Shown piece by piece: positions 14,393-25,012 of a DNA stretch of 64,000 nucleotides. The notes below the pieces were generated by a model. The model was not told where the DNA came from. It did no database searches and saw nothing but the letters and a program-made list of their open reading frames with translations. A program made the translations under genes and the position numbers. How positions within the stretch are numbered: the stretch's first letter is position 1; each line of letters opens with the position of its first letter. This DNA is from Paenarthrobacter ureafaciens (GTDB taxonomy: Bacteria > Actinomycetota > Actinomycetes > Actinomycetales > Micrococcaceae). The stretch lies in assembly GCF_004028095.1 (NCBI RefSeq), contig NZ_SBHM01000007.1:62001-126000 (forward strand), in the 5' to 3' direction.

Positions 14393-15295
14393 ATGACTAC
14401 CCGACTCGTAACCAACTGGTCCGGCCGCAGCCGCAAGGATTTCGTCGTATTCCTTGCCATGGCATTGCCGAACCTGGCCCTGATCGCCACCTTCACCTAC
14501 TGGCCGCTCATCAACAACATCTACTACTCCACGCTGGACTGGACGCTCGGTTCGGCCTCGGCCACAGTGGTGGGCCTGCAGAACTACGTCACGTTTTTCA
14601 CCGGCGAGGACGCGCCGAAGGTCCTGGGCACCACGGCGGTCTTCACGGTCGTCACAGTGGGTGGCTCCATGGTCCTGGGGCTGCTTGTCGCTCTGGCGCT
14701 GAATTCCAAAGTCAGGGGCACCACGTTTGCCCGGTCGGTGGTCTTCGCACCGTACGTGCTCTCCGGCGTCGGCGTCGGATTGGTATGGCTTTTCATCTTC
14801 GACCCCGGCTATGGCGTCCTGGCGTGGATCCTCCGCGGCCTGGGGCAACAGAGCCCGCAGTGGATGAACGATCCGCAGTTGTCATTGGTGATGGTCATGA
14901 TCGTCTACGTGTGGAAGAACCTGGGCTACTGCGCCGTGGTCTACCTCGCCGGGCTGCAGTCCCTGCCACGGGACGTCATGGAAGCCGCTGCACTGGACGG
15001 CGCCAACAACGTGCGCCGGTTCTTCAACATCTCAGTTCCCCTGCTGTCCCCCACCACGTTCTTCCTGCTGATCACCACCGTGCTCAGTTCCCTGCAGGCC
15101 TTCGACCTGATCCGCATCATGACGCCACTCGGAAACGGGACCAGCACTTTGATTTACGAGGCCTACCTCCAGGCGTTCGCTGCCTACAACCGGGCCGGCT
15201 ACTCGGCAGCAATCTCCGTGGTGCTCTTCGCCGTCCTCCTGGTCATTACGGTCCTCCAACTGCGCTTCGTTGAGCGAAAGGTCCACTACTCATGA
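14393..15295 (+). CDS. Carbohydrate ABC transporter permease, MalF type (CUT1)
   Basis: A 300-residue permease with about six membrane helices. The cytoplasmic EAA loop, EAAALDGANNVRRFFNISVPLLSP, contacts the ATPase. It forms the channel for a sugar, together with the permease encoded next, and overlaps it by four bases (ATGA). No regulator or ATPase gene is adjacent, so a shared MsiK-like ATPase elsewhere is inferred. The substrate is unknown. Confidence 0.92.
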   Translation: MTTRLVTNWSGRSRKDFVVFLAMALPNLALIATFTYWPLINNIYYSTLDWTLGSASATVVGLQNYVTFFTGEDAPKVLGTTAVFTVVTVGGSMVLGLLVALALNSKVRGTTFARSVVFAPYVLSGVGVGLVWLFIFDPGYGVLAWILRGLGQQSPQWMNDPQLSLVMVMIVYVWKNLGYCAVVYLAGLQSLPRDVMEAAALDGANNVRRFFNISVPLLSPTTFFLLITTVLSSLQAFDLIRIMTPLGNGTSTLIYEAYLQAFAAYNRAGYSAAISVVLFAVLLVITVLQLRFVERKVHYS

Positions 15296-16236
15296 GCGCC
15301 CAGTCTCCCGCCGTCGTCGTGCCTTCCAACGAACCGCAGTGCCACGATCCGCAGCCCGACCAGCCGCGACCCCACGAGCCGCAGCCCGTGCCCCGGCCGT
15401 TGTCCAGGACGAACCTAATCCAAACGCTCGCCGCCGGCTACGTCCCGCTGGTCCTCACCACGTTGGTGGTGTTCCTGCCCCTGTTGTGGATGGTGCTCAG
15501 CTCCTTCAAGCAACCCGGCGAGATCGTCACAACCGACCTGAAGATCCTTCCGGACTCCTTGAATCTGGAGAACTACGCCACGGCAATAACCACGGTCCCG
15601 TTCGCGCAGTTCTTCGCCAACAGCCTGGTCGTTACCACCGTTGGCTCCACCATCAAGGTGGTCCTTGCCATCCTGACTGCCTACGCCCTGGTGTTCGTCC
15701 GGTTTCCGTTCAAGAACGTGATCTTCGTGCTGATCCTGGTGGCCCTCATGGTGCCGGCCCAAGTGTCCATCCTGCCCAACTACATCCTGGTCGCAGGCAT
15801 GGGCGGGAAGAACACCCTGTGGGGCATCATCCTTCCGGGCCTGGGAACAGCGTTCGGCACGTTCCTTCTCCGCCAGCACTTCCTGACCCTTCCGCCTTCC
15901 ATCCTTGAAGCCGCAGAAATCGACGGCGCCGGGCATTGGCGGCGGTTGTGGCAAATCATCGTTCCGGTTTCCCTGCCCTCTGTGGCCACCGTTGCCCTGG
16001 TGACCGTGGTCAGTGAATGGAATGACTACATCTGGCCACTCATCATCACCGATCGACCGGAAACCATGACGCTGCCGGTAGGCCTCACCCTGCTCCAAAA
16101 CTCCGAAGGAAACGGCGCCGGCTGGGGAATCCTCATGGCGGGCGCCGTTCTGGTGATCGTCCCCATCCTGCTGGTTTTCGCCGCACTGCAGCGCTACATC
16201 GTCGCTGGCCTCACCCAAGGCAGCGTCACAGGCTGA
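15292..16236 (+). CDS. Carbohydrate ABC transporter permease, MalG type (CUT1)
   Basis: A 314-residue permease. A proline-rich cytoplasmic N-terminus of about 40 residues precedes six helices. The EAA loop reads EAAEIDGAGHWRRLWQIIVPVSLP, and the conserved SEWNDYIWPL of MalG-type permeases follows. It is translationally coupled to the MalF-type partner and lies 53 bases before the binding protein gene. Confidence 0.93.
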   Translation: MSAQSPAVVVPSNEPQCHDPQPDQPRPHEPQPVPRPLSRTNLIQTLAAGYVPLVLTTLVVFLPLLWMVLSSFKQPGEIVTTDLKILPDSLNLENYATAITTVPFAQFFANSLVVTTVGSTIKVVLAILTAYALVFVRFPFKNVIFVLILVALMVPAQVSILPNYILVAGMGGKNTLWGIILPGLGTAFGTFLLRQHFLTLPPSILEAAEIDGAGHWRRLWQIIVPVSLPSVATVALVTVVSEWNDYIWPLIITDRPETMTLPVGLTLLQNSEGNGAGWGILMAGAVLVIVPILLVFAALQRYIVAGLTQGSVTG

Positions 16237-16289
16237 CATTCTCCAGCCACACCAATTCGCATCGTAGGAAGTAAGTGAGAGGAAGCACC

Positions 16290-17636
16290 ATGCGCACCAA
16301 CCTTGACCGTCGGCATTTCCTTGGCCTCGCAGGCCTGGGTGCCGGGGCCGCGGCATTAACTGCCTGCGGCGGGCCATCCACCGCGGGTCCGGGGACCGCC
16401 GTCGAATCTGCTGCCGTCGACTTCACCAACGTCAAGCCGGCCGCCTCGTTCGATTTCTGGACCAACCACCCGGGCAAGTCCCAGGACGTAGAAAAGGCCA
16501 TCATCAGCAAGTTCCAGGCAAAGTTCCCCGACATCAAGGTGAACCTGGTGACCGCAGGCGCCAACTATGAGGAAATTGCGCAGAAGTTCCAGACTTCCCA
16601 AGCCGCCAAGACCGGACTTCCCGGCTTGGTTGTCCTCTCCGATGTGTGGTGGTTCCGCTACTTCTCCAACGGCAGCATCATCCCGATCGACAATCTGGTG
16701 AAGCACCTGGACATCCAGCTCGACGACTTCCAGAAGTCCCTGGTTGACGACTACAAGTACGACAACCAGCAGTGGGCCCTGCCATACGGCCGCTCCACCC
16801 CGCTTTTCTACTACAACAAAGACCACTTCAAGGCCGCAGGCCTTCCCGACCGGGCTCCGGCGACGTGGCAGGAATTCGCCGAGTGGGCTCCCAAACTGAA
16901 AGCCTCCTCCGGCGCGCAGTACGCCTACATTTATCCCGCGCTGGCCGGCTACGCGGGCTGGACCTTGCAGAACAACCTCTGGGGCTGGGGCGGCAACTGG
17001 TCCAAGGACTGGGAGATCACGTGCGATTCAGACAAGTCGGTTGCCGCTCTGCAGTGGGCCCAGGACTCGATCTACAAGGACGGTTGGGCAGGCGTTTCCT
17101 CCAAGGAGGCCGCGGACGACTTCGCCGCCGGCATCACCTCGGCAACCATTTCCTCCACGGGCTCCCTGCTGGGCGTCCTGAAAGCAGCCAAGTTCAACGT
17201 GGGAGTCGGCTTCCTGCCGGGCGGTCCCGAGGCAACCACCGGAGTCTGCCCTACCGGTGGCGCCGGGCTGGGCATCCCGAACGGTATCAGCAAAGAGGAG
17301 CAGCTCGCCGCCGCGACGTTCCTCAAGTTCATGACGGAGCCGGAAAACACGGCCGCCTTCTCGGCCGCAACGGGTTACATGCCCACGCGCCTGTCCGCCG
17401 ACATGTCAGCTGTACTGGCCGCCACGCCCCAGATCAAGACGGCCATGGACCAGCTCGCTGTCACCCGTGTCCAGGACAACGCCCGGGTGTTCCTTCCCGG
17501 CGCCGACCAGGAAATGGCCAAGGCGGCAGCCAAGATCCTCACCCAGCAGGGTGACGTCAAAGCAACGATGACCGAGTTGAAGAAGACGCTCGAGGGCATC
17601 TACACAAAGGACGTCAAGCCCAAGTTGAAGGGCTGA
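16290..17636 (+). CDS. Sugar ABC transporter substrate-binding lipoprotein
   Basis: A 448-residue family 1 extracellular binding protein. The N-terminus has a twin-arginine motif (DRRHFLG) and, after a hydrophobic stretch, a lipobox LTAC|GG, so it is probably exported folded by Tat and then lipid-anchored. The body has FDFWTNHPGKSQDVEKAIISKFQAKFPDIKVNLV and LPYGRSTPLFYYNKDHFKAAGLP, typical of disaccharide and oligosaccharide binders. The ATG preceded by AGAGGAAG is preferred to a GTG five codons earlier. A strong terminator follows. Confidence 0.93.
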   Translation: MRTNLDRRHFLGLAGLGAGAAALTACGGPSTAGPGTAVESAAVDFTNVKPAASFDFWTNHPGKSQDVEKAIISKFQAKFPDIKVNLVTAGANYEEIAQKFQTSQAAKTGLPGLVVLSDVWWFRYFSNGSIIPIDNLVKHLDIQLDDFQKSLVDDYKYDNQQWALPYGRSTPLFYYNKDHFKAAGLPDRAPATWQEFAEWAPKLKASSGAQYAYIYPALAGYAGWTLQNNLWGWGGNWSKDWEITCDSDKSVAALQWAQDSIYKDGWAGVSSKEAADDFAAGITSATISSTGSLLGVLKAAKFNVGVGFLPGGPEATTGVCPTGGAGLGIPNGISKEEQLAAATFLKFMTEPENTAAFSAATGYMPTRLSADMSAVLAATPQIKTAMDQLAVTRVQDNARVFLPGADQEMAKAAAKILTQQGDVKATMTELKKTLEGIYTKDVKPKLKG

Positions 17637-17738: not shown

Positions 17739-18566
17739 TCAGGGGATGGGTACCGGCACGACGCCGAGCGGCGCAAGGTTGGCTGCCCCGCCGTCCGGCG
17801 AGGACAGGACCCAAATGCCCTCTTCATGGACGGCAACGGAGTGCTCCCACTGGCACGAGCGCTTGCCGTCGGTGGTGACCACGGTCCAGTCGTCATCCAG
17901 GGTCGCCGTTTCGATGCCTCCGCGCACCAGCATCGGTTCGATGGCCAGGCACAGACCGGGCCGGATCTTAGGGCCACGGTGGCTGGTGCGGTAGTTCAGG
18001 ACATCCGGGGCCATGTGCATCTCGGAACCAATCCCGTGGCCGACGTAATCCTCAAGGATTCCGAGGGGCTTGCCCGGCACTGAGGACACGTAGTCATCGA
18101 TCGCATTGCCGATGTCTCCCACGAACTTGCCCTTGGCCAGACCGGCGATGCCGTGCCACATGGCGGCCTCGGTGACATCGGAAAGCCGCTGGTCCTCGGG
18201 GTCAGCGGTTCCAACGATCACGGTGCGGGCCGAGTCCGAGTGCCATCCGTCCACGATGCAGCCGCCGTCGATCGAGATGATGTCCCCGTCTTCCAGGACC
18301 CTGTTGCCGGGGATTCCGTGGACGACTTCCTCGTTGACCGAGGTGCAGATGGTTGCCGGGAAGCCGTGGTATCCGACGAAGTTGGACTTGGCGCCGGCAT
18401 CGTTGAGGACGGCAGCAAAGACGTCATCGAGGTCCTTGGTGGTGACACCTGCCTTGGCTGCTGCAACCGCTGCGTCAAGGGCACGGCTAAGGACCAGTCC
18501 TGCCTCGTGCATCTTGCGCATCTGCTGGTTGGACTTGTATTCAATGCGGGGCTGACCGAACGCCAT
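17739..18566 (-). CDS. map: Methionine aminopeptidase, type I
   Basis: A 275-residue enzyme that removes the initiator methionine. It has the metal ligands of the family: SIDGGCIVDGWHSDSARTV carries the two aspartates, GHGIGSEMHMAPDV the histidine, and CLAIEPML and WEHSVAVHEEG the glutamates. The ATG (MAFGQPRIEYKS) has GAGGAG six bases upstream; a longer frame upstream has no homology. It is 31 bases after the OleD-like gene on the same strand, so the ole-type operon probably reads into map. No terminator was seen between them. Confidence 0.96.
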   Translation of the reverse strand: MAFGQPRIEYKSNQQMRKMHEAGLVLSRALDAAVAAAKAGVTTKDLDDVFAAVLNDAGAKSNFVGYHGFPATICTSVNEEVVHGIPGNRVLEDGDIISIDGGCIVDGWHSDSARTVIVGTADPEDQRLSDVTEAAMWHGIAGLAKGKFVGDIGNAIDDYVSSVPGKPLGILEDYVGHGIGSEMHMAPDVLNYRTSHRGPKIRPGLCLAIEPMLVRGGIETATLDDDWTVVTTDGKRSCQWEHSVAVHEEGIWVLSSPDGGAANLAPLGVVPVPIP

Positions 18567-18597: not shown

Positions 18598-19509
18598 TCA
18601 GGCCCCGTGCTCCAACCATTTTCGCGCATCCGAGAGCGTGGTCGAAATTGGTTCGACCCCGAGCCCCTCGCGAAGCCTGTCCAAGCAATAGGTCCGCTCC
18701 CGCCCGAGTTGGCTCACGGCATAGCGGGTCAGCCGCGGCGGAGTCCCCGTTGCCATGGCAGCAGCTTCGGAAAAGCCGGCCACGGCCATCGCCACGGCCT
18801 CCGGAATATACCGAATGCCCGTGTGCGGGTGGCCCGTCACGTCAAGGACCTCACGCAGTACTGAACCGAGCTCCACAGGCTCCGCATCGGCCACATTTAC
18901 GGCACCACGGAGTTCGGACCCGCAGGCTGCGAGCGCGGCAGTGGTCAAATTGTCGATATGCGTCAGCTGATGCCTCACGGTGGGACGCCCGACGCTGAGG
19001 AGCCGTCCGCGCCGGATGTTGCCGATGAGCCGTGGCAACAGCGTCCGGTCGCCTTGGCCATAGACTCCGTGTGGCCGGAGCGACAAGGCGTTGCCGTGCT
19101 TGCGTGCTTCGATGTCGGCCAGCGCCTTGCTGCGCCCATAGGCGTTCAGGTGCTTGGACGCGACTTCTTCCTCAACGCGGTTCACGCAGGACTCCCACCA
19201 GGGGTAGACGCTGGAACTTGAGATATGGACCAGGCGCGTCCGCGCATAGACCTCGCTGAGGGCCCGCGTCCCTAGGACATTGACCCGGTGAAAGATCCGG
19301 GGGTCGCCCCAGTCCGCGACGTGGGCACCGGCATGCACGACGGCGTCAACCTCCGGCAGGCGCGCTGGCGGACGGTCCGCGAGGTCCCAGTATGCGTAGC
19401 CCGGGTCCCGGCGACGCGCGAACCTTACAACGTCCCATCCCTTGTCTTCAGCGGCCCGGGCGATCGCTCTTCCGACGAAACCCGTGGCACCCGTGACGGC
19501 GATCTTCAT
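18598..19509 (-). CDS. NAD(P)-dependent 3-beta-HSD/epimerase family reductase, OleD-like
   Basis: A 303-residue extended short-chain dehydrogenase. It begins with the nucleotide motif TGATGFVGRAIA and has VVHAGAHVADWGDPRIFHRVNVLGT, HISSSSVYPWW and the catalytic YGRSK (YxxxK). In olefin and beta-lactone pathways OleD reduces the 2-alkyl-3-ketoacid from OleA to the 2-alkyl-3-hydroxyacid used by OleC. Assignment rests on family features plus the neighbouring OleC- and OleA-like genes. It overlaps the ligase gene by four bases (ATGA) and is last in the five-gene operon. Confidence 0.8.
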   Translation of the reverse strand: MKIAVTGATGFVGRAIARAAEDKGWDVVRFARRRDPGYAYWDLADRPPARLPEVDAVVHAGAHVADWGDPRIFHRVNVLGTRALSEVYARTRLVHISSSSVYPWWESCVNRVEEEVASKHLNAYGRSKALADIEARKHGNALSLRPHGVYGQGDRTLLPRLIGNIRRGRLLSVGRPTVRHQLTHIDNLTTAALAACGSELRGAVNVADAEPVELGSVLREVLDVTGHPHTGIRYIPEAVAMAVAGFSEAAAMATGTPPRLTRYAVSQLGRERTYCLDRLREGLGVEPISTTLSDARKWLEHGA

Positions 19510-21293
19510 GCCGGGCCCACCAGGGCCGCTGCGTCTGTAACCGCTCCGAACTGCTGCCTGAGCGCTTCACGATCCGGCTTCCGGTGCCGCCCGCTGACCG
19601 GCATATTGTCCAGGACTTCGATGCGGTCCGGGAGTGCCGATTCGTCGATGAGTCGCGGTAGCTCCTGCCCGAGCCGGGCCTTCAGGGCCGCGGCCGACTG
19701 ACCGGCCCGGGGCACAACCGCCAGCCACACCGACTCGTCACCGATGCCGTCCGGAACTCCTACCATCGCCGCTTCAGCGACACCCGCCACGCCGGCGATG
19801 ACGGGTTCATACAGAGCGGGGTAGATGTTGGCCTTGCCCCGGATAATCATGTCCTTCTTGCGTCCGATCATCACCAGCCGTGGCCGCGCGCCGGAGCTGG
19901 TGGCCGCGCCCCGTGCCCCCGAGCTGATGGGCGCGCCCCGTGCCCCCGCCCCGTAGTCGAGCCTCACCAAGTCTCCCGTCGCGTGTTCGATCATTGGGTC
20001 CTGGCCCAAATAGCCGTGGCACATGTTGGGCCCGCGGGCGAACAGTTCGTGGTCCTCACCGAGGCGGATTTCGACGGCGGGCAGCGGTTCCCCGAGGAAG
20101 TCGCCCTCACCACGGCCATCCTGGGTGAGGTGCCCGGCGTCAGCTCCCGAGGCGAAGGCAAGCTTCTCCCTGCCGTCCGCTATTGCTATGGGCAGAAGCT
20201 CAGTCATTCCGTAAATGAGCTTGAAGTCCACATCGGGCAAGACCCGCATGGCCCGCTCCAGGAAAGGTGCCAGAACGGGGGCCGCTCCCAACATCACAGT
20301 TCCCAAGGTCTTCGGAAGCGTGACCTCCCCACGCTCAATCCCGTCGAGGATGGGCGCCAGCTGCGACGGCACCAGGAAAAGGTGAGTGGCGCCGTCGTAC
20401 GTTGACCTTTTCCCGGCGACCGGCCCAAGTTCGCCGGCCAAGCGAAGGGGGTCGATGTGCGCCGAAAAGCCGTACGAGGGCATGGTCCAGTGCGCCCCGG
20501 CGATCAGGGCCGGCAGGCCCATCATGAGCTGCTCCGAATGGATACGGTCCCCGTCGCTGAAGGTGCACTTGGTGCTCAACTGCTGAAAACCGGCAGCCAA
20601 GGAACCGCGCGTATGGACAACACCCTTCGGTGCTCCCGTGGTTCCGGAGGTGAAGATGATCACCGCTTCCTGGGCGGGATGGTGCCCGGGCTGTCCCTTG
20701 GTGGTGCCAGTAGTGGTGGTGCCGGTAGTCAGGGGTCGTCTCAGCGTCTTCACCGGGGTAGCTCCCCGGGGCACCCCCGGCATCCAAGGTCCCGAATAGT
20801 AGTGGCGGACGTCCATCGCGCCGTAATCGGGCAGGAGCAGGCCACGCCGACGCGCCAGGGGGCGGACGGGGCTCCTGGTACTCACTGCGTAGAGAAGCGA
20901 TTCGGCAGCCGCCCAACCCGGCGCGGCCAGCTCCGCCCTGTCCCGGAACAACGAAGGACCGATGCCGGGGTCAATGAACACCACCGACCCACCGGCCCGG
21001 ACGGCACCCAACGCGAGGATGAACGCGGCCGGACTCGGCCTGACCGAGAAGAGCATCCTTTCACCCTTGCCAAAGCCGTCGGCCTGCAGGCGCACCGACG
21101 TTGCTTCGATGCCTTCCATCAGCTGCCTGTAGGTGATGGTTGGACCGGGCCTCACTGACACCTTGCCGCCGGGCCGACGCCTGGTCCTGCCCGGAGCTGT
21201 GATGGCGGGATTGTCCGGGACACGTTCAGCCGCCGCGTAGACGGCGGCAATGAGGTCAGGGCTGTCCTGCCCGCCGGTGATTTCAGAGGGCAT
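19506..21293 (-). CDS. AMP-binding ligase, OleC-like (beta-lactone synthetase)
   Basis: A 595-residue ANL-superfamily enzyme. The phosphate loop FTSGTTGAPKG is at residues 214-224, then YGMTELLPIA, GDLVRLDYG and GRKKDMIIRGKANIYP. Its end, MPVSGRHRKPDREAL, resembles OleC, which closes a beta-hydroxyacid to a beta-lactone with ATP. No alpha/beta-hydrolase domain is fused at the N-terminus, unlike the OleBC fusion known from Micrococcus. Two oddities are a Thr/Gly-rich stretch at about 188-199 and a tandem 9-residue repeat (GARGAPISS, GARGAATSS) just before the hinge motif. It overlaps the P450 gene by 11 bases. A plain acyl-CoA ligase is the alternative. Confidence 0.8.
   Translation of the reverse strand: MPSEITGGQDSPDLIAAVYAAAERVPDNPAITAPGRTRRRPGGKVSVRPGPTITYRQLMEGIEATSVRLQADGFGKGERMLFSVRPSPAAFILALGAVRAGGSVVFIDPGIGPSLFRDRAELAAPGWAAAESLLYAVSTRSPVRPLARRRGLLLPDYGAMDVRHYYSGPWMPGVPRGATPVKTLRRPLTTGTTTTGTTKGQPGHHPAQEAVIIFTSGTTGAPKGVVHTRGSLAAGFQQLSTKCTFSDGDRIHSEQLMMGLPALIAGAHWTMPSYGFSAHIDPLRLAGELGPVAGKRSTYDGATHLFLVPSQLAPILDGIERGEVTLPKTLGTVMLGAAPVLAPFLERAMRVLPDVDFKLIYGMTELLPIAIADGREKLAFASGADAGHLTQDGRGEGDFLGEPLPAVEIRLGEDHELFARGPNMCHGYLGQDPMIEHATGDLVRLDYGAGARGAPISSGARGAATSSGARPRLVMIGRKKDMIIRGKANIYPALYEPVIAGVAGVAEAAMVGVPDGIGDESVWLAVVPRAGQSAAALKARLGQELPRLIDESALPDRIEVLDNMPVSGRHRKPDREALRQQFGAVTDAAALVGPA
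19894..19947. repeat. Tandem 27-bp repeat inside the OleC-like gene
   Basis: Two adjacent 27-base units (19894-19920 and 19921-19947) match at 25 positions. They encode the repeated peptide GARGAPISS / GARGAATSS in frame. The preceding bases look like a decayed third copy. The repeat lies in the linker before the C-terminal lid domain. Confidence 0.8.
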
Positions 21294-22464
21294 TGGCGAG
21301 CTCCAGCTTCCGGTAGCCCGGAATCAGCACACGCGTGCTGACGGCCCGGGAAGCGATGACCCACGGCCTCTGCGCAAATCTGTCCAGGAGAACCTCCAAG
21401 GTTGCAGTGATCTCCGCCATGGCCAGCGGCATGCCGATGCAGAAATGTGGTCCTGCCCCGAACCACAACTGGCGCGCTTGCGCCGGGATGGGTTCCCCCG
21501 GGTTGAAACCACCCAGGCTCTTGGCAGCATGGATGGTGGACAACAGGATCCGGTCCCCGGTGCGCACAACCGTTCCTCCGATGTTCCCGGGGGCAACGGC
21601 GTTTCGCAGCATCATGGGCGACGGCACCGTGAACCTCAACGACTCGTTCACTGCTGCCCCCATCCCCGACCTGTCCGCAACCAGTTCCTCAATGCGTCCG
21701 GTATCGGCAAGCAACGCCACCAGCCGGGGCACGAATGACACGAGCGTTTCCGTTCCCACCATCACGAAGGCACTGATGATGCCCATCGCTTCGTCTTCGC
21801 TCATGCCCAGCCCGCGGAGCCGGCCCGGGAAGGTTGCAGGGTCTCCGTCGCGGTAGGCGCTTCGGGCGGGTCCTGCGAGAACCTCGACGGCGGCCCTTCC
21901 CTTGGCAGCCTGCTCCGGCGTCAAGGTTGGGCGACCTAAACGAACCAAGGATGAGATGGATGACCCTAAATCGAAGAGGTCCTTGTTCGGCAGTCTGCCC
22001 GGGGCATGTTCCGGAACGCCCAGCAACCGTGAGATGACGCCGCCCGCAAGTTCCTTGACGCAGTCCACCAGGTCCACCCGTCCCGGCCCGTCCAGGTCAT
22101 GCTCAACGCGGGCCTTCAACGCAACGGATGCCGGTTGGACGATTTCCGCCACCGAGGCCGGAGTGAACAAGTCAGCGAGCTTCCGCCTTAGCTCGCGATG
22201 CTCTGCACCGTCCATGTTGACCAGTGCCTTCGGGCCGACGACCGGTGTCCAAAGCCCTCCGGAGGCAGAGGGCCCGTTCTTTACGAAGCGTTCACCGTCC
22301 AACAGCACATCACGCACCAACCGTGCTTCGCTGACCAGGACACCCAGCCCCGGGATCCTCATCACCGGTTTCACGGCGCCCAGCGATCGGATGGTCGGGT
22401 ACAGCAAGGGATGCGCTCCGAGGTGGACGCGCCGTTCCCAGCGTTCAGCGGTTGCAACTGACAT
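21283..22464 (-). CDS. Cytochrome P450
   Basis: A 393-residue soluble P450. The heme loop FGAGPHFCIGMPLA places the thiolate ligand at C342, the ExxR motif is ESLRF, and the I-helix segment is AFVMVGTETLVSF. The ATG (MSVATAERWERR) is two bases after the glycosyltransferase stop; a longer frame runs back through that gene and is rejected. No ferredoxin or reductase gene is adjacent, so redox partners must come from elsewhere. Its place between OleA- and OleC-type genes suggests that it oxidises the lipid substrate or product (inference). Confidence 0.93.
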   Translation of the reverse strand: MSVATAERWERRVHLGAHPLLYPTIRSLGAVKPVMRIPGLGVLVSEARLVRDVLLDGERFVKNGPSASGGLWTPVVGPKALVNMDGAEHRELRRKLADLFTPASVAEIVQPASVALKARVEHDLDGPGRVDLVDCVKELAGGVISRLLGVPEHAPGRLPNKDLFDLGSSISSLVRLGRPTLTPEQAAKGRAAVEVLAGPARSAYRDGDPATFPGRLRGLGMSEDEAMGIISAFVMVGTETLVSFVPRLVALLADTGRIEELVADRSGMGAAVNESLRFTVPSPMMLRNAVAPGNIGGTVVRTGDRILLSTIHAAKSLGGFNPGEPIPAQARQLWFGAGPHFCIGMPLAMAEITATLEVLLDRFAQRPWVIASRAVSTRVLIPGYRKLELANAL

Positions 22465-22466
22465 GG

Positions 22467-23270
22467 CTACCGAATGTCCACGTGCTCGGGACGGTAACGG
22501 TGGTCCGCGTACCAAGCCAGCGTGTTCTTCAAGCCCCACGCTTTGACCCGCCGGGAGGACCCGTAGACCACGACGTCCCTCCGCAGCCCGTAATTGCGTG
22601 TCAACTTCCGGACGCGGTTGGACAGTGCCCTGTCCTCGTGGAGGTCCTCGATCCTGGTCCGCGGGAATCCCCCGGAGCGGTGATACATATCCGCGGTGAT
22701 CGCCATGTTGCAGCCCGGAAGCATTTGGTAGGGGCCCAAATAGCCCTCTCCCTTGTTGCCGGGCCTGATCTTTCCGAAGAACGAGGCCACCTCCACGGCC
22801 ACCAGCATCAAACGACGATCCCGCGCAGTGATGCCTTCGTCCTGCCGGGGAATCAGCTGCCCGGCAATCAGTTCCAAGCCATCGTGGAAGGCCGCCATGA
22901 TCCGGGCCGTCCAATCCTTGGCAGCAAGGCAATCCGCGTCCGTGCGGGCCAACCATGTGGCACCGTGTTCGACTCCGAACCGCATACCCGTATCGGCAGC
23001 TGCGCCTGTGCCCTTCTCCGTTTCATGGATCAGCCTGATGTCCATGACACGGTGCTCACCGGCGAAGGCTTCCACGATGGCGCAGCTGGCGTCGGTGGAT
23101 CCGTTATCAACCACAACCACCGTGAAGTCCTGATAGTCCTGCGCAGCGAGCGAATCCAAGGACTGGCGGACAAGCTTCTCTTCGTTGAGCATCGGCACTG
23201 CGATGCACAGCGGCCTGGTAGCGGAATCGCTGTGCAACCCTGTTCCGGCTCCTGCTGACGAGCGGTTCAT
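22467..23270 (-). CDS. Family 2 glycosyltransferase
   Basis: A 267-residue GT2 enzyme with no clear membrane segment. CIAVPMLNEEKLVRQSLDSL opens the nucleotide-binding fold. VVVDNGSTDAS, the metal-binding ARTDADC (DxD-like) and the later GFPRTRIEDLHEDRALSNRVRK (acceptor/ED region) follow. The ATG overlaps the stop of the OleA-like gene (ATGA), which rules out longer starts. In this operon it could glycosylate a hydroxyl on the long-chain product, but donor and acceptor are unknown. Confidence 0.88.
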   Translation of the reverse strand: MNRSSAGAGTGLHSDSATRPLCIAVPMLNEEKLVRQSLDSLAAQDYQDFTVVVVDNGSTDASCAIVEAFAGEHRVMDIRLIHETEKGTGAAADTGMRFGVEHGATWLARTDADCLAAKDWTARIMAAFHDGLELIAGQLIPRQDEGITARDRRLMLVAVEVASFFGKIRPGNKGEGYLGPYQMLPGCNMAITADMYHRSGGFPRTRIEDLHEDRALSNRVRKLTRNYGLRRDVVVYGSSRRVKAWGLKNTLAWYADHRYRPEHVDIR

Positions 23271-24322
23271 AGCCGCACCACCGCGATGCCCAGGCTGACG
23301 CCGCCGGCCAGGCCTACCAGGGCAACCAGGTCTCCCGGACCACATCGTCCACCATCCAGGGCGAGCTTCAACTGCAACGGAAGACTAACGGAGGCCAAGT
23401 TGCCGAACTCTTCCACTGCCGGGACCAACAGGTCGCGCGGCACTCCCGCACGCTCTGCAAAGATCTCCCGGTAGGGCGCGCTGACTTGGTGGACACAGAC
23501 CACCGCGAAGTCTTGCCAGTTCAGCTTGAGGGCCTCCAAGGTCTCTCCCAGGACATCGGAGCCCAAGTCCAGGAAGGCGTCCTTCAGCTTCTCCCCGTCC
23601 ATGGTGAAATAGCTGGCTTCGGGGTCCCGGGGAAACGCAGATCCACCGGCGGCCAAGGTCCCTACCGGCCAGTGGATGCTCTTTGCAATGAATGCCATGC
23701 CAAGAATGCCCTCGGCCGCCGGGCTTGAAGGCTCACTGTCAGCAGTAGCGCCTTCGGAAGCTTCGAGCAGGACGGCCGCGCCGCCGTCGCTCATGGTGTA
23801 ACCGGGGAAGCTGGACGCGAAAGTCGCGAAATCAGGAACAGACCACCGGACCGCCCGCGAGGGCGACTCCCCCGTCACCACCAGAACCCGACCGTAACGG
23901 CGGGAGGCAATCAGGGAATCGGCCACTTCCAGTCCGTTCAGGAAACTGTTGCAGGCGTTCTTGACGTCCATCACCGGGCAACTGAGTCCCAGCTTTGCGG
24001 CGGCAATATGGGCTGTTGCGGGCTCCACCATGTCCTGGCTCGCGGAGGCAAAAACCAGAAGGTCGACATCCGGGGCCTGGAGCCCGCAACTGGCCAGGAC
24101 CTTGGCTGCTGCGTTGACGGCAAGATCTGACGCCTGCTCCGACTCGGCCATCACGCTACGGGACCGGATGCCTGTGACGCGGGAAATCAAACCCTTGGGA
24201 ATCCGGAAGCCCGGGCTCGATTCGACGATGCGCTGCTCGACGGCATCCGTGTCCAGACGTGCAGGAGGCACATAGACTTCCAGACCTGCAATCCGGCTCC
24301 TGCCGGACATGACTGTGTGCAT
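23267..24322 (-). CDS. OleA-like thiolase (head-to-head acyl-CoA condensing enzyme)
   Basis: A 351-residue thiolase-superfamily enzyme of the FabH/OleA branch. The catalytic triad is visible: C124 in KNACNSFLNG, H278 in VHQVSAPY and N308 in EFGNLASVSLP. E100, in VEPATAHIAAAKLG, fits the glutamate (Glu117 in Xanthomonas OleA, from memory) that marks OleA and not FabH. OleA condenses two acyl-CoAs to a 2-alkyl-3-ketoacid. The ATG with GGGGGAAG upstream is chosen; an in-frame extension upstream runs through the adk terminator. It is first in the five-gene operon. Confidence 0.85.
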   Translation of the reverse strand: MHTVMSGRSRIAGLEVYVPPARLDTDAVEQRIVESSPGFRIPKGLISRVTGIRSRSVMAESEQASDLAVNAAAKVLASCGLQAPDVDLLVFASASQDMVEPATAHIAAAKLGLSCPVMDVKNACNSFLNGLEVADSLIASRRYGRVLVVTGESPSRAVRWSVPDFATFASSFPGYTMSDGGAAVLLEASEGATADSEPSSPAAEGILGMAFIAKSIHWPVGTLAAGGSAFPRDPEASYFTMDGEKLKDAFLDLGSDVLGETLEALKLNWQDFAVVCVHQVSAPYREIFAERAGVPRDLLVPAVEEFGNLASVSLPLQLKLALDGGRCGPGDLVALVGLAGGVSLGIAVVRL

Positions 24323-24354: not shown

Positions 24355-24395
24355 AAAGGGTGTGTCCCGCACTCATCGTACGGGACACACCCTTT
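24355..24395 (-). terminator. Intrinsic terminator between adk and the oleA-like gene
   Basis: A perfect 15-bp inverted repeat (AAAGGGTGTGTCCCG and complement) with an 11-base loop. On the minus strand it is followed by TTTTTCCTTTT. It ends the secY-adk transcript 39 bases past adk and only about 32 bases before the oleA-like start, leaving almost no room for a promoter in between. Confidence 0.85.
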
Positions 24396-24433: not shown

Positions 24434-25012
24434 CTAGACAGCCTTGGCAGCTTCAATGGCGGTCAGGACGCGGTCAGTGACCTCGTCGATTCCACCAATG
24501 CCGTCAACCTGGGTCAGGATGCCGCGCTCGGCGTACTTGGCCACGACGGCCTCAGTCTGCTCGTGGTAGAGGTCGAGGCGGTGGCGGATGACGGCTTCAT
24601 TGTCGTCAGACCGGCCGGTCTCCTTGGCACGGCCGAGGAGGCGGCTGACCAGTTCCTCGTCGTCGGCAGTCAGCTGGAGCACGACGTCGAGCTCCTGCTG
24701 GGTCTCGGCGAGGATGTTGTCCAGGTAGTCCACCTGTGCCGTGGTGCGGGGGTAGCCGTCCAGGAGGAAGCCGTTCTCGACGTCGCTCTCGCTCAGACGG
24801 TCCCGAACCATCTTGTTGGTGACGCTGTCCGGTACGAAGTCACCGGCGTCCATGTACTTCTTGGCCTCCAGGCCAAGGGGGGTCTCGCCCTTGACGTTGG
24901 CACGGAAAATGTCGCCAGTGGAGATGGCGACTACGCCCAGCCGCGCGGAAATCCGTTCAGCCTGCGTACCCTTGCCCGAACCCGGAGGTCCAATGATCAG
25001 CATTCTCGTCAT
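24434..25012 (-). CDS. adk: Adenylate kinase
   Basis: A 192-residue enzyme that interconverts ATP+AMP and 2 ADP. The P-loop is GPPGSGKGTQAERI; DGYPRTTAQVDYLD and GRAKETGRSDDNEAVIRHRL (LID arginines) are conserved. It has the short LID without the zinc-binding insert, as in other actinobacteria. The start overlaps the secY stop by four bases (ATGA). Confidence 0.98.
   Translation of the reverse strand: MTRMLIIGPPGSGKGTQAERISARLGVVAISTGDIFRANVKGETPLGLEAKKYMDAGDFVPDSVTNKMVRDRLSESDVENGFLLDGYPRTTAQVDYLDNILAETQQELDVVLQLTADDEELVSRLLGRAKETGRSDDNEAVIRHRLDLYHEQTEAVVAKYAERGILTQVDGIGGIDEVTDRVLTAIEAAKAV

Follow-up and report, generated by a model that had tools for sequence, protein, structure and literature searches.

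Which product is assembled by ole genes that have no oleB among them is the question raised by a five-gene set of Paenarthrobacter ureafaciens, carried on the 64,000-nt stretch analyzed here (NZ_SBHM01000007.1 positions 62,001-126,000; hereafter the window, whose positions serve as coordinates). A first-pass annotation had described five tightly packed minus-strand genes for an OleA-like thiolase, a family 2 glycosyltransferase (GT2), a cytochrome P450, an OleC-like ligase and an OleD-like reductase, and all five are present between map and adk at the places assigned to them. From the lack of OleB it had gone on to propose a β-lactone or hydroxyacid as the end point; the lactone does not follow, because the ligase is not OleC by signature. 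The five-gene set is real and conserved, the β-lactone end point is weakened, and we give an even chance to the locus being a mobile operon for a glycosylated, α-branched β-hydroxy fatty acid whose carboxyl group is activated as a thioester or ester.

The argument turns on the adenylate-forming (ANL) ligase. Motifs were counted among the best 120 matches each of the ligase family and of the OleC type, from which proteins shorter than 480 amino acids (6 and 5, respectively) were dropped, leaving 114 and 115 sequences, the OleC-type list being mostly from Streptomyces. The P-loop TSGTT of the window ligase recurs in 112/114 family members and 0/115 OleC-type sequences, and TSGST in 1/114 and 107/115. 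The A8 motif GRxxDM..R is found throughout the family (114/114) and in none of the 115 OleC-type sequences, and the C-terminal RHNxKIx[RC], replaced by SGRHRKPDR in the window, occurs in 0/114 and 95/115. Canonical OleC rows in a separate alignment likewise show the OleC motifs, and P0226, annotated by its source as an olefin β-lactone synthetase, has the whole set. In the ligase tree the GT2-associated ligases form a clade of their own (42 rows, support 99/96) and the OleCs of five OleB loci join the canonical OleCs (9 rows, 100/100); with five distant outgroup ligases, the tree leaves unsettled how close either clade stands to general CoA ligases. The label OleC-like has therefore to be withdrawn: the OleC signatures are absent, motifs of CoA-ligase type are present and the clade is apart from the OleB-partnered OleCs, which weakens the β-lactone end point. 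The motif is compatible with thioester formation, the activity predicted here, as the pantetheine path of ANL enzymes runs along the A8 loop.

The thiolase fared better. The β-ketoacyl synthase III (KSIII) has the residues first listed, C124, H278, N308 and E100, when counted from the start at 24322 (C120, H274, N304 and E96 from the ATG at 24310). The Cys-His-Asn triad is present in 117/117 OleA-type rows, window included, the Cys having belonged to one search pattern used to gather the named loci described below. At the position of OleA E117, a Glu followed by Pro occupies 117/117 OleA-type rows, some of them near-identical, and 0/3 FabH rows; this Glu is the base of OleA, and PMC7064751 describes it as essential in the enzyme of X. 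campestris. The predicted model (mean predicted local distance difference test score, pLDDT, 89.8) is closest to solved OleA structures, and a KSIII clade of 57 rows (98/91) takes in OleAs of loci with OleB. The curated model PRK09258 (NF006720; named 3-oxoacyl-ACP synthase III, not OleA) scores the window KSIII at 158 bits, its cut-off being 285 and canonical OleA reaching 437-467. Because the Glu is kept, the model lies nearest OleA and the clade includes these OleAs, the enzyme is OleA-type, a predicted non-decarboxylative Claisen enzyme. The nesting of the OleB-associated KSIIIs inside the GT2-associated ones is insecure (approximately unbiased test, p 0.065 for the GT2-associated rows kept together).

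The set recurs well beyond this window. A scan of named genomes gave 355 relatives, the best 80 of which were kept as named loci; carriers among these 80 belong to Paenarthrobacter/Arthrobacter, Lentzea, Saccharopolyspora, Pseudonocardia, Actinomadura, Catellatospora, Streptomyces, Cellulosimicrobium and others. The single-strand order OleA-GT2-P450-ligase-OleD, whose survey the first-pass annotation had called for, is kept in 76/80 named loci; among the remaining four, L054 and L085 are cut off by contig ends, the L076 ligase is encoded on the opposite strand and L062 shows neither GT2 nor OleD. Ratios of nonsynonymous to synonymous substitution (dN/dS) are 0.05-0.20 across 20 gene-by-relative comparisons, with dS >1, near saturation, in all; low ratios and a recurring gene order indicate that the set is more than chance. 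A survey of the class covered 394 genomes for the window's KSIII clade (E <1e-70), neighbours being typed by tblastn with few queries, and found 34 loci in 33 genomes. The window-type order, whole or in part but with GT2 and ligase present, was seen in 13 of the 34 (OleD unmatched in L209 and L217, P450 and OleD in L208 and L223), and a second order, OleA-GT2-ligase-P450-OleD, here called type II, in nine (OleD unmatched in L194). Seven have OleC, OleD and OleB, one is OleA-P450 only (L216) and four have the KSIII alone; GT2-type sets amount to 22/394 genomes. The seven OleB loci (L195, L198, L199, L203, L206, L225 and L226, the first five placed in trees) combine a window-clade KSIII, 40-42% identical to the window's in two cases, with canonical-type OleC and OleD, GT2 and P450 not being matched in the locus; this combination may reflect an exchange of Claisen enzymes across pathways.

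The absence of OleB was upheld. In the organism's own genome oleBC was not found: what comes closest to OleBC are weak, incomplete matches, one of 33% over 112 residues in the OleB part (E 1.3e-9) and one of 27% over the ligase of the window itself (E 4.9e-9). Across the genus, oleBC (E <1e-60) occurs in 83/150 genomes, and in only 3 of the 25 with a close KSIII (G155, G186 and G241; Fisher p 1.4e-6, kinship ignored). No OleB-like match above 80 bits lies within any of the best 80 named loci. In the class survey, with one query at E 1e-40, OleB was matched in 44/394 genomes and in 8/33 KSIII-clade genomes, namely the seven with OleB loci and G422, whose KSIII stands alone; it was matched in 0/22 GT2-set genomes.

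The remaining three enzymes agree with their first description. The short-chain dehydrogenase/reductase (SDR) keeps YxxxK in 43/43 rows. Against the curated OleD models NF042422 and NF042423, its best NCBIfam match is the former at 107 bits, under the cut-off of 580, as are the canonical Micrococcaceae OleDs (271-275). In the reductase tree the OleDs of five OleB loci join the canonical ones (Shimodaira-Hasegawa-like approximate likelihood ratio test, SH-aLRT, 100) and the GT2-associated reductases form a separate clade (100). GT2 and P450 carry active-enzyme motifs: the former has its DxD and ED motifs, with HEDR in 80/80 relatives and TDADC in 75/80, and the P450 of the window has the heme Cys, ExxR and the I-helix acid-alcohol pair, its relatives keeping the heme motif in 85/85, GTET in 85/85 and the ExxR pattern in 82/85. 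Conservation is highest in the GT2, with a mean column identity of 68%, followed by KSIII (61%), P450 (52%) and ligase (45%), the row sets differing between these proteins. Single open reading frames join GT2 to P450 in L026:2159-4144 and L027:10165-12150 (661 amino acids each; Pfam shown for L026 only) and GT2 to ligase in L208:10788-13142 (784 amino acids); the L026 and L208 fusions support one pathway.

Some relatives of these enzymes depart from the window type. In the three aligned type II P450s (L190, L194 and L202) the I-helix acid is missing (NTT/TTT for TET) and the heme Cys kept, so that they may not act as ordinary monooxygenases. Seven of nine type II GT2s (L190-L194, L196, L197, L200 and L202) are without [EDQ]D[RW], the counterpart of the window's HEDR, and DAD is kept in all nine; the L202 row is its second GT2, encoded between ligase and P450 (L202:5390-6184). 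An additional P450 is encoded no more than 7.5 kb away in 47/80 named loci and in 0/16 Arthrobacter-group loci.

The chemical steps, their order, the chain lengths, the sugar and the end product are all predicted from the sequences. The OleA-type KSIII would couple two acyl-CoAs without decarboxylation to give a 2-alkyl-3-oxo acid, which the OleD-like SDR would reduce to the 2-alkyl-3-hydroxy acid. The P450 may contribute a hydroxyl group, and the GT2 would attach a sugar to a hydroxyl. The ANL ligase would then activate the carboxylate, most likely through the adenylate to a thioester rather than by β-lactone closure; alternatively, it may transfer the carboxylate to a hydroxyl group of a sugar, giving an ester or macrolactone. 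We propose, tentatively and with more doubt than confidence, that the product could represent a new class of actinobacterial glycolipid, in which a mycolate-like 2-alkyl-3-hydroxy acid made by an OleA-type rather than a PKS13-type Claisen enzyme is glycosylated by the GT2 and, once a non-OleC ligase has activated its carboxyl, joined through it to a sugar, as a macrolactone or dilactone of glucolypsin type.

Were the ligase to close a β-lactone after OleA, OleD, P450 and GT2 have acted, a glycosylated hydroxylated long-chain β-lactone would result. The same gene set led to the same inference in PMC7064751, the lack of oleBC and of OleB-like matches is in keeping with it, and PRK09274 is the best NCBIfam model of both the window ligase and canonical OleC. 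It nevertheless appears somewhat unlikely, given TSGTT for TSGST, the presence of the A8 motif, the absence of RHNxKI, the separate ligase clade and a Lentzea ligase whose best match is a general CoA-ligase model. The ligase could instead act at the start, making the CoA thioester of a free fatty acid, hydroxylated by the P450 and glycosylated by the GT2, for condensation by the KSIII and reduction by the SDR, the free acid or its spontaneous products leaving the cell. Its CoA-ligase-type motifs and its profile matches to FadD5 and to malonyl-CoA and feruloyl-CoA synthetases would suit such a role; we hold it to be unlikely, as acyl-CoAs are already present in the cell and the tight GT2-ligase linkage argues for a late step on a glycosylated product.

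The KSIII might also belong to an unrelated pathway, as a decarboxylative ketosynthase of FabH type. By sequence profile it falls between the two enzymes, FabH and OleA, and scores higher with FabH. Such a function is nonetheless very improbable, for the OleA-type Glu stands where FabH has Phe or Thr, the structural ranking is nearest OleA, the partner is OleD-like, sister OleAs are associated with OleB and the same genome has a separate FabH. In the structure comparison of the KSIII model, however, another six OleA entries are placed among the FabHs. Thioester formation by the ligase has a caveat of its own: its best PDB profile match is a non-ribosomal peptide synthetase (NRPS) adenylation domain, which scores above the CoA ligases.

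No described cluster was thought to have this set, which proved mistaken. Smith et al. (mBio 2020; PMC7064751) describe an OleA, GT, OleC, P450 and OleD region without oleB in the Actinoplanes atraurantiacus genome, an OleA active on p-nitrophenyl hexanoate and, as proposed product, a glycosylated hydroxylated long-chain β-lactone. The five activities, the lack of oleB and the inferred pathway are the same as in the window, so that this kind was already known as a prediction; the published listing has the ligase before the P450, whereas the window has the P450 first. The published order is that of the nine type II loci, the region, its ligase included, being compared by its published description. 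Type II KSIIIs are 45-48% identical to the window KSIII (3 rows), and Actinoplanes proteins of this kind occur among the matches. We know of no GT2 in the lipstatin or nocardiolactone clusters; LstC and NltC, which we take to be the ligases of known OleB-less systems, stand outside the motif comparison. Both clusters, mentioned in PMC7064751, have OleA, OleC and OleD homologues without OleB, and their known products are β-lactones. The canonical Micrococcaceae oleA-oleBC-oleD cluster likewise has an OleA-type Claisen enzyme, an ANL enzyme and an SDR, but its OleB is fused to a true OleC, GT2 and P450 are not matched and its KSIII is 26% identical to the window's; ole clusters are reported from almost all Micrococcaceae species having complete genomes (PMC7158056, in the part accessible). 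Glucolypsin-type macrocyclic dilactones, as described in the accessible part of PMC4365757, bear glucose on 2-methyl-3-hydroxy acids whose carboxyl is linked to sugar C6, a structure makeable by KSIII, SDR, GT2 and ligase with no need of a P450 step; the likeness is in chemistry only. The literature searched, in part as excerpts, yielded no gene cluster for these dilactones and no product linked to GT2-type sets. The present analysis adds a different gene order, a broad distribution, the place of insertion and a ligase unlike OleC.

A close KSIII occurs in 7/149 Micrococcaceae genomes (E <1e-90) and in 25/150 of the genus. Among the 30 best loci out of 60 genus genomes matching map, adk lies directly beside map in 24, an empty site, and OleD and ligase are found there in 6, a pattern indicative of a single insertion site. 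The KSIII tree makes the Arthrobacter set the sister group of Pseudonocardiaceae (94/89, below the starred level), and the remaining Micrococcaceae carriers cluster with Microbacteriaceae, Cellulomonadaceae and Promicromonosporaceae; this split placement suggests separate acquisitions. A Micrococcaceae variant, KSIII-P450-OleD, is present in L023:5976-12783 and also in L024 and L025, with neither GT2 nor ligase matched in the locus. On their upstream side, L023 and L024 encode a protein of ~440 amino acids (no Pfam match in L023) and one of ~760-790 (ATP-grasp and GNAT in L023), a possible amide-forming substitute for the ligase.

Within the window (Table 1), the top Pfam match of each of the five proteins exceeds its gathering score. 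KSIII and GT2 overlap by 4 bases, GT2 and P450 are 2 bases apart, P450 and ligase overlap by 11 and ligase and SDR by 4. The 99-nt stretch around the hairpin beyond adk has a folding z of -7.4; over the whole scan terminator-like sites show no excess (6 vs 5.6 in shuffles), and a simple scan found no sigma-70-type promoter. With the hairpin placed between adk and the first gene, the five genes are probably transcribed as a unit of their own. Past map, on the opposite strand, are ATP-binding cassette (ABC) transport genes for two permeases and a solute-binding protein (14393-17636).

Table 1. Features of the five-gene locus and its borders, in window positions.
Feature	Position	Strand	Characteristics
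OleA-type KSIII (thiolase superfamily)	23267..24322	-	Pfam ACP_syn_III + ACP_syn_III_C; alternative start ATG at 24310
GT2 glycosyltransferase	22467..23270	-	Pfam Glycos_transf_2; TDADC + HEDR motifs
Cytochrome P450	21283..22464	-	Pfam p450; heme Cys342, I-helix GTET
ANL (adenylate-forming) ligase	19506..21293	-	Pfam AMP-binding + AMP-binding_C; CoA-ligase-type A8 motif
OleD-like NAD(P)-dependent SDR	18598..19509	-	Best NCBIfam match OleD NF042422; YxxxK
Terminator-like hairpin 3' of adk, separating secY-adk from the five-gene set	24355..24395	-	18-pair stem
adk, upstream border; adjoins map where the five-gene set is absent	24434..25012	-	
map (methionine aminopeptidase), downstream border	17739..18566	-	

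GT2-type sets are common and small enough for one plasmid. The short A8 and RHNxKI motifs tell the two kinds of ligase apart and could mend automatic annotation. If the ligase is indeed no β-lactone synthetase, product predictions drawn from ole genes without oleB would be wrong for this group, in which an OleA-type enzyme would supply a glycolipid and not an olefin or a β-lactone.

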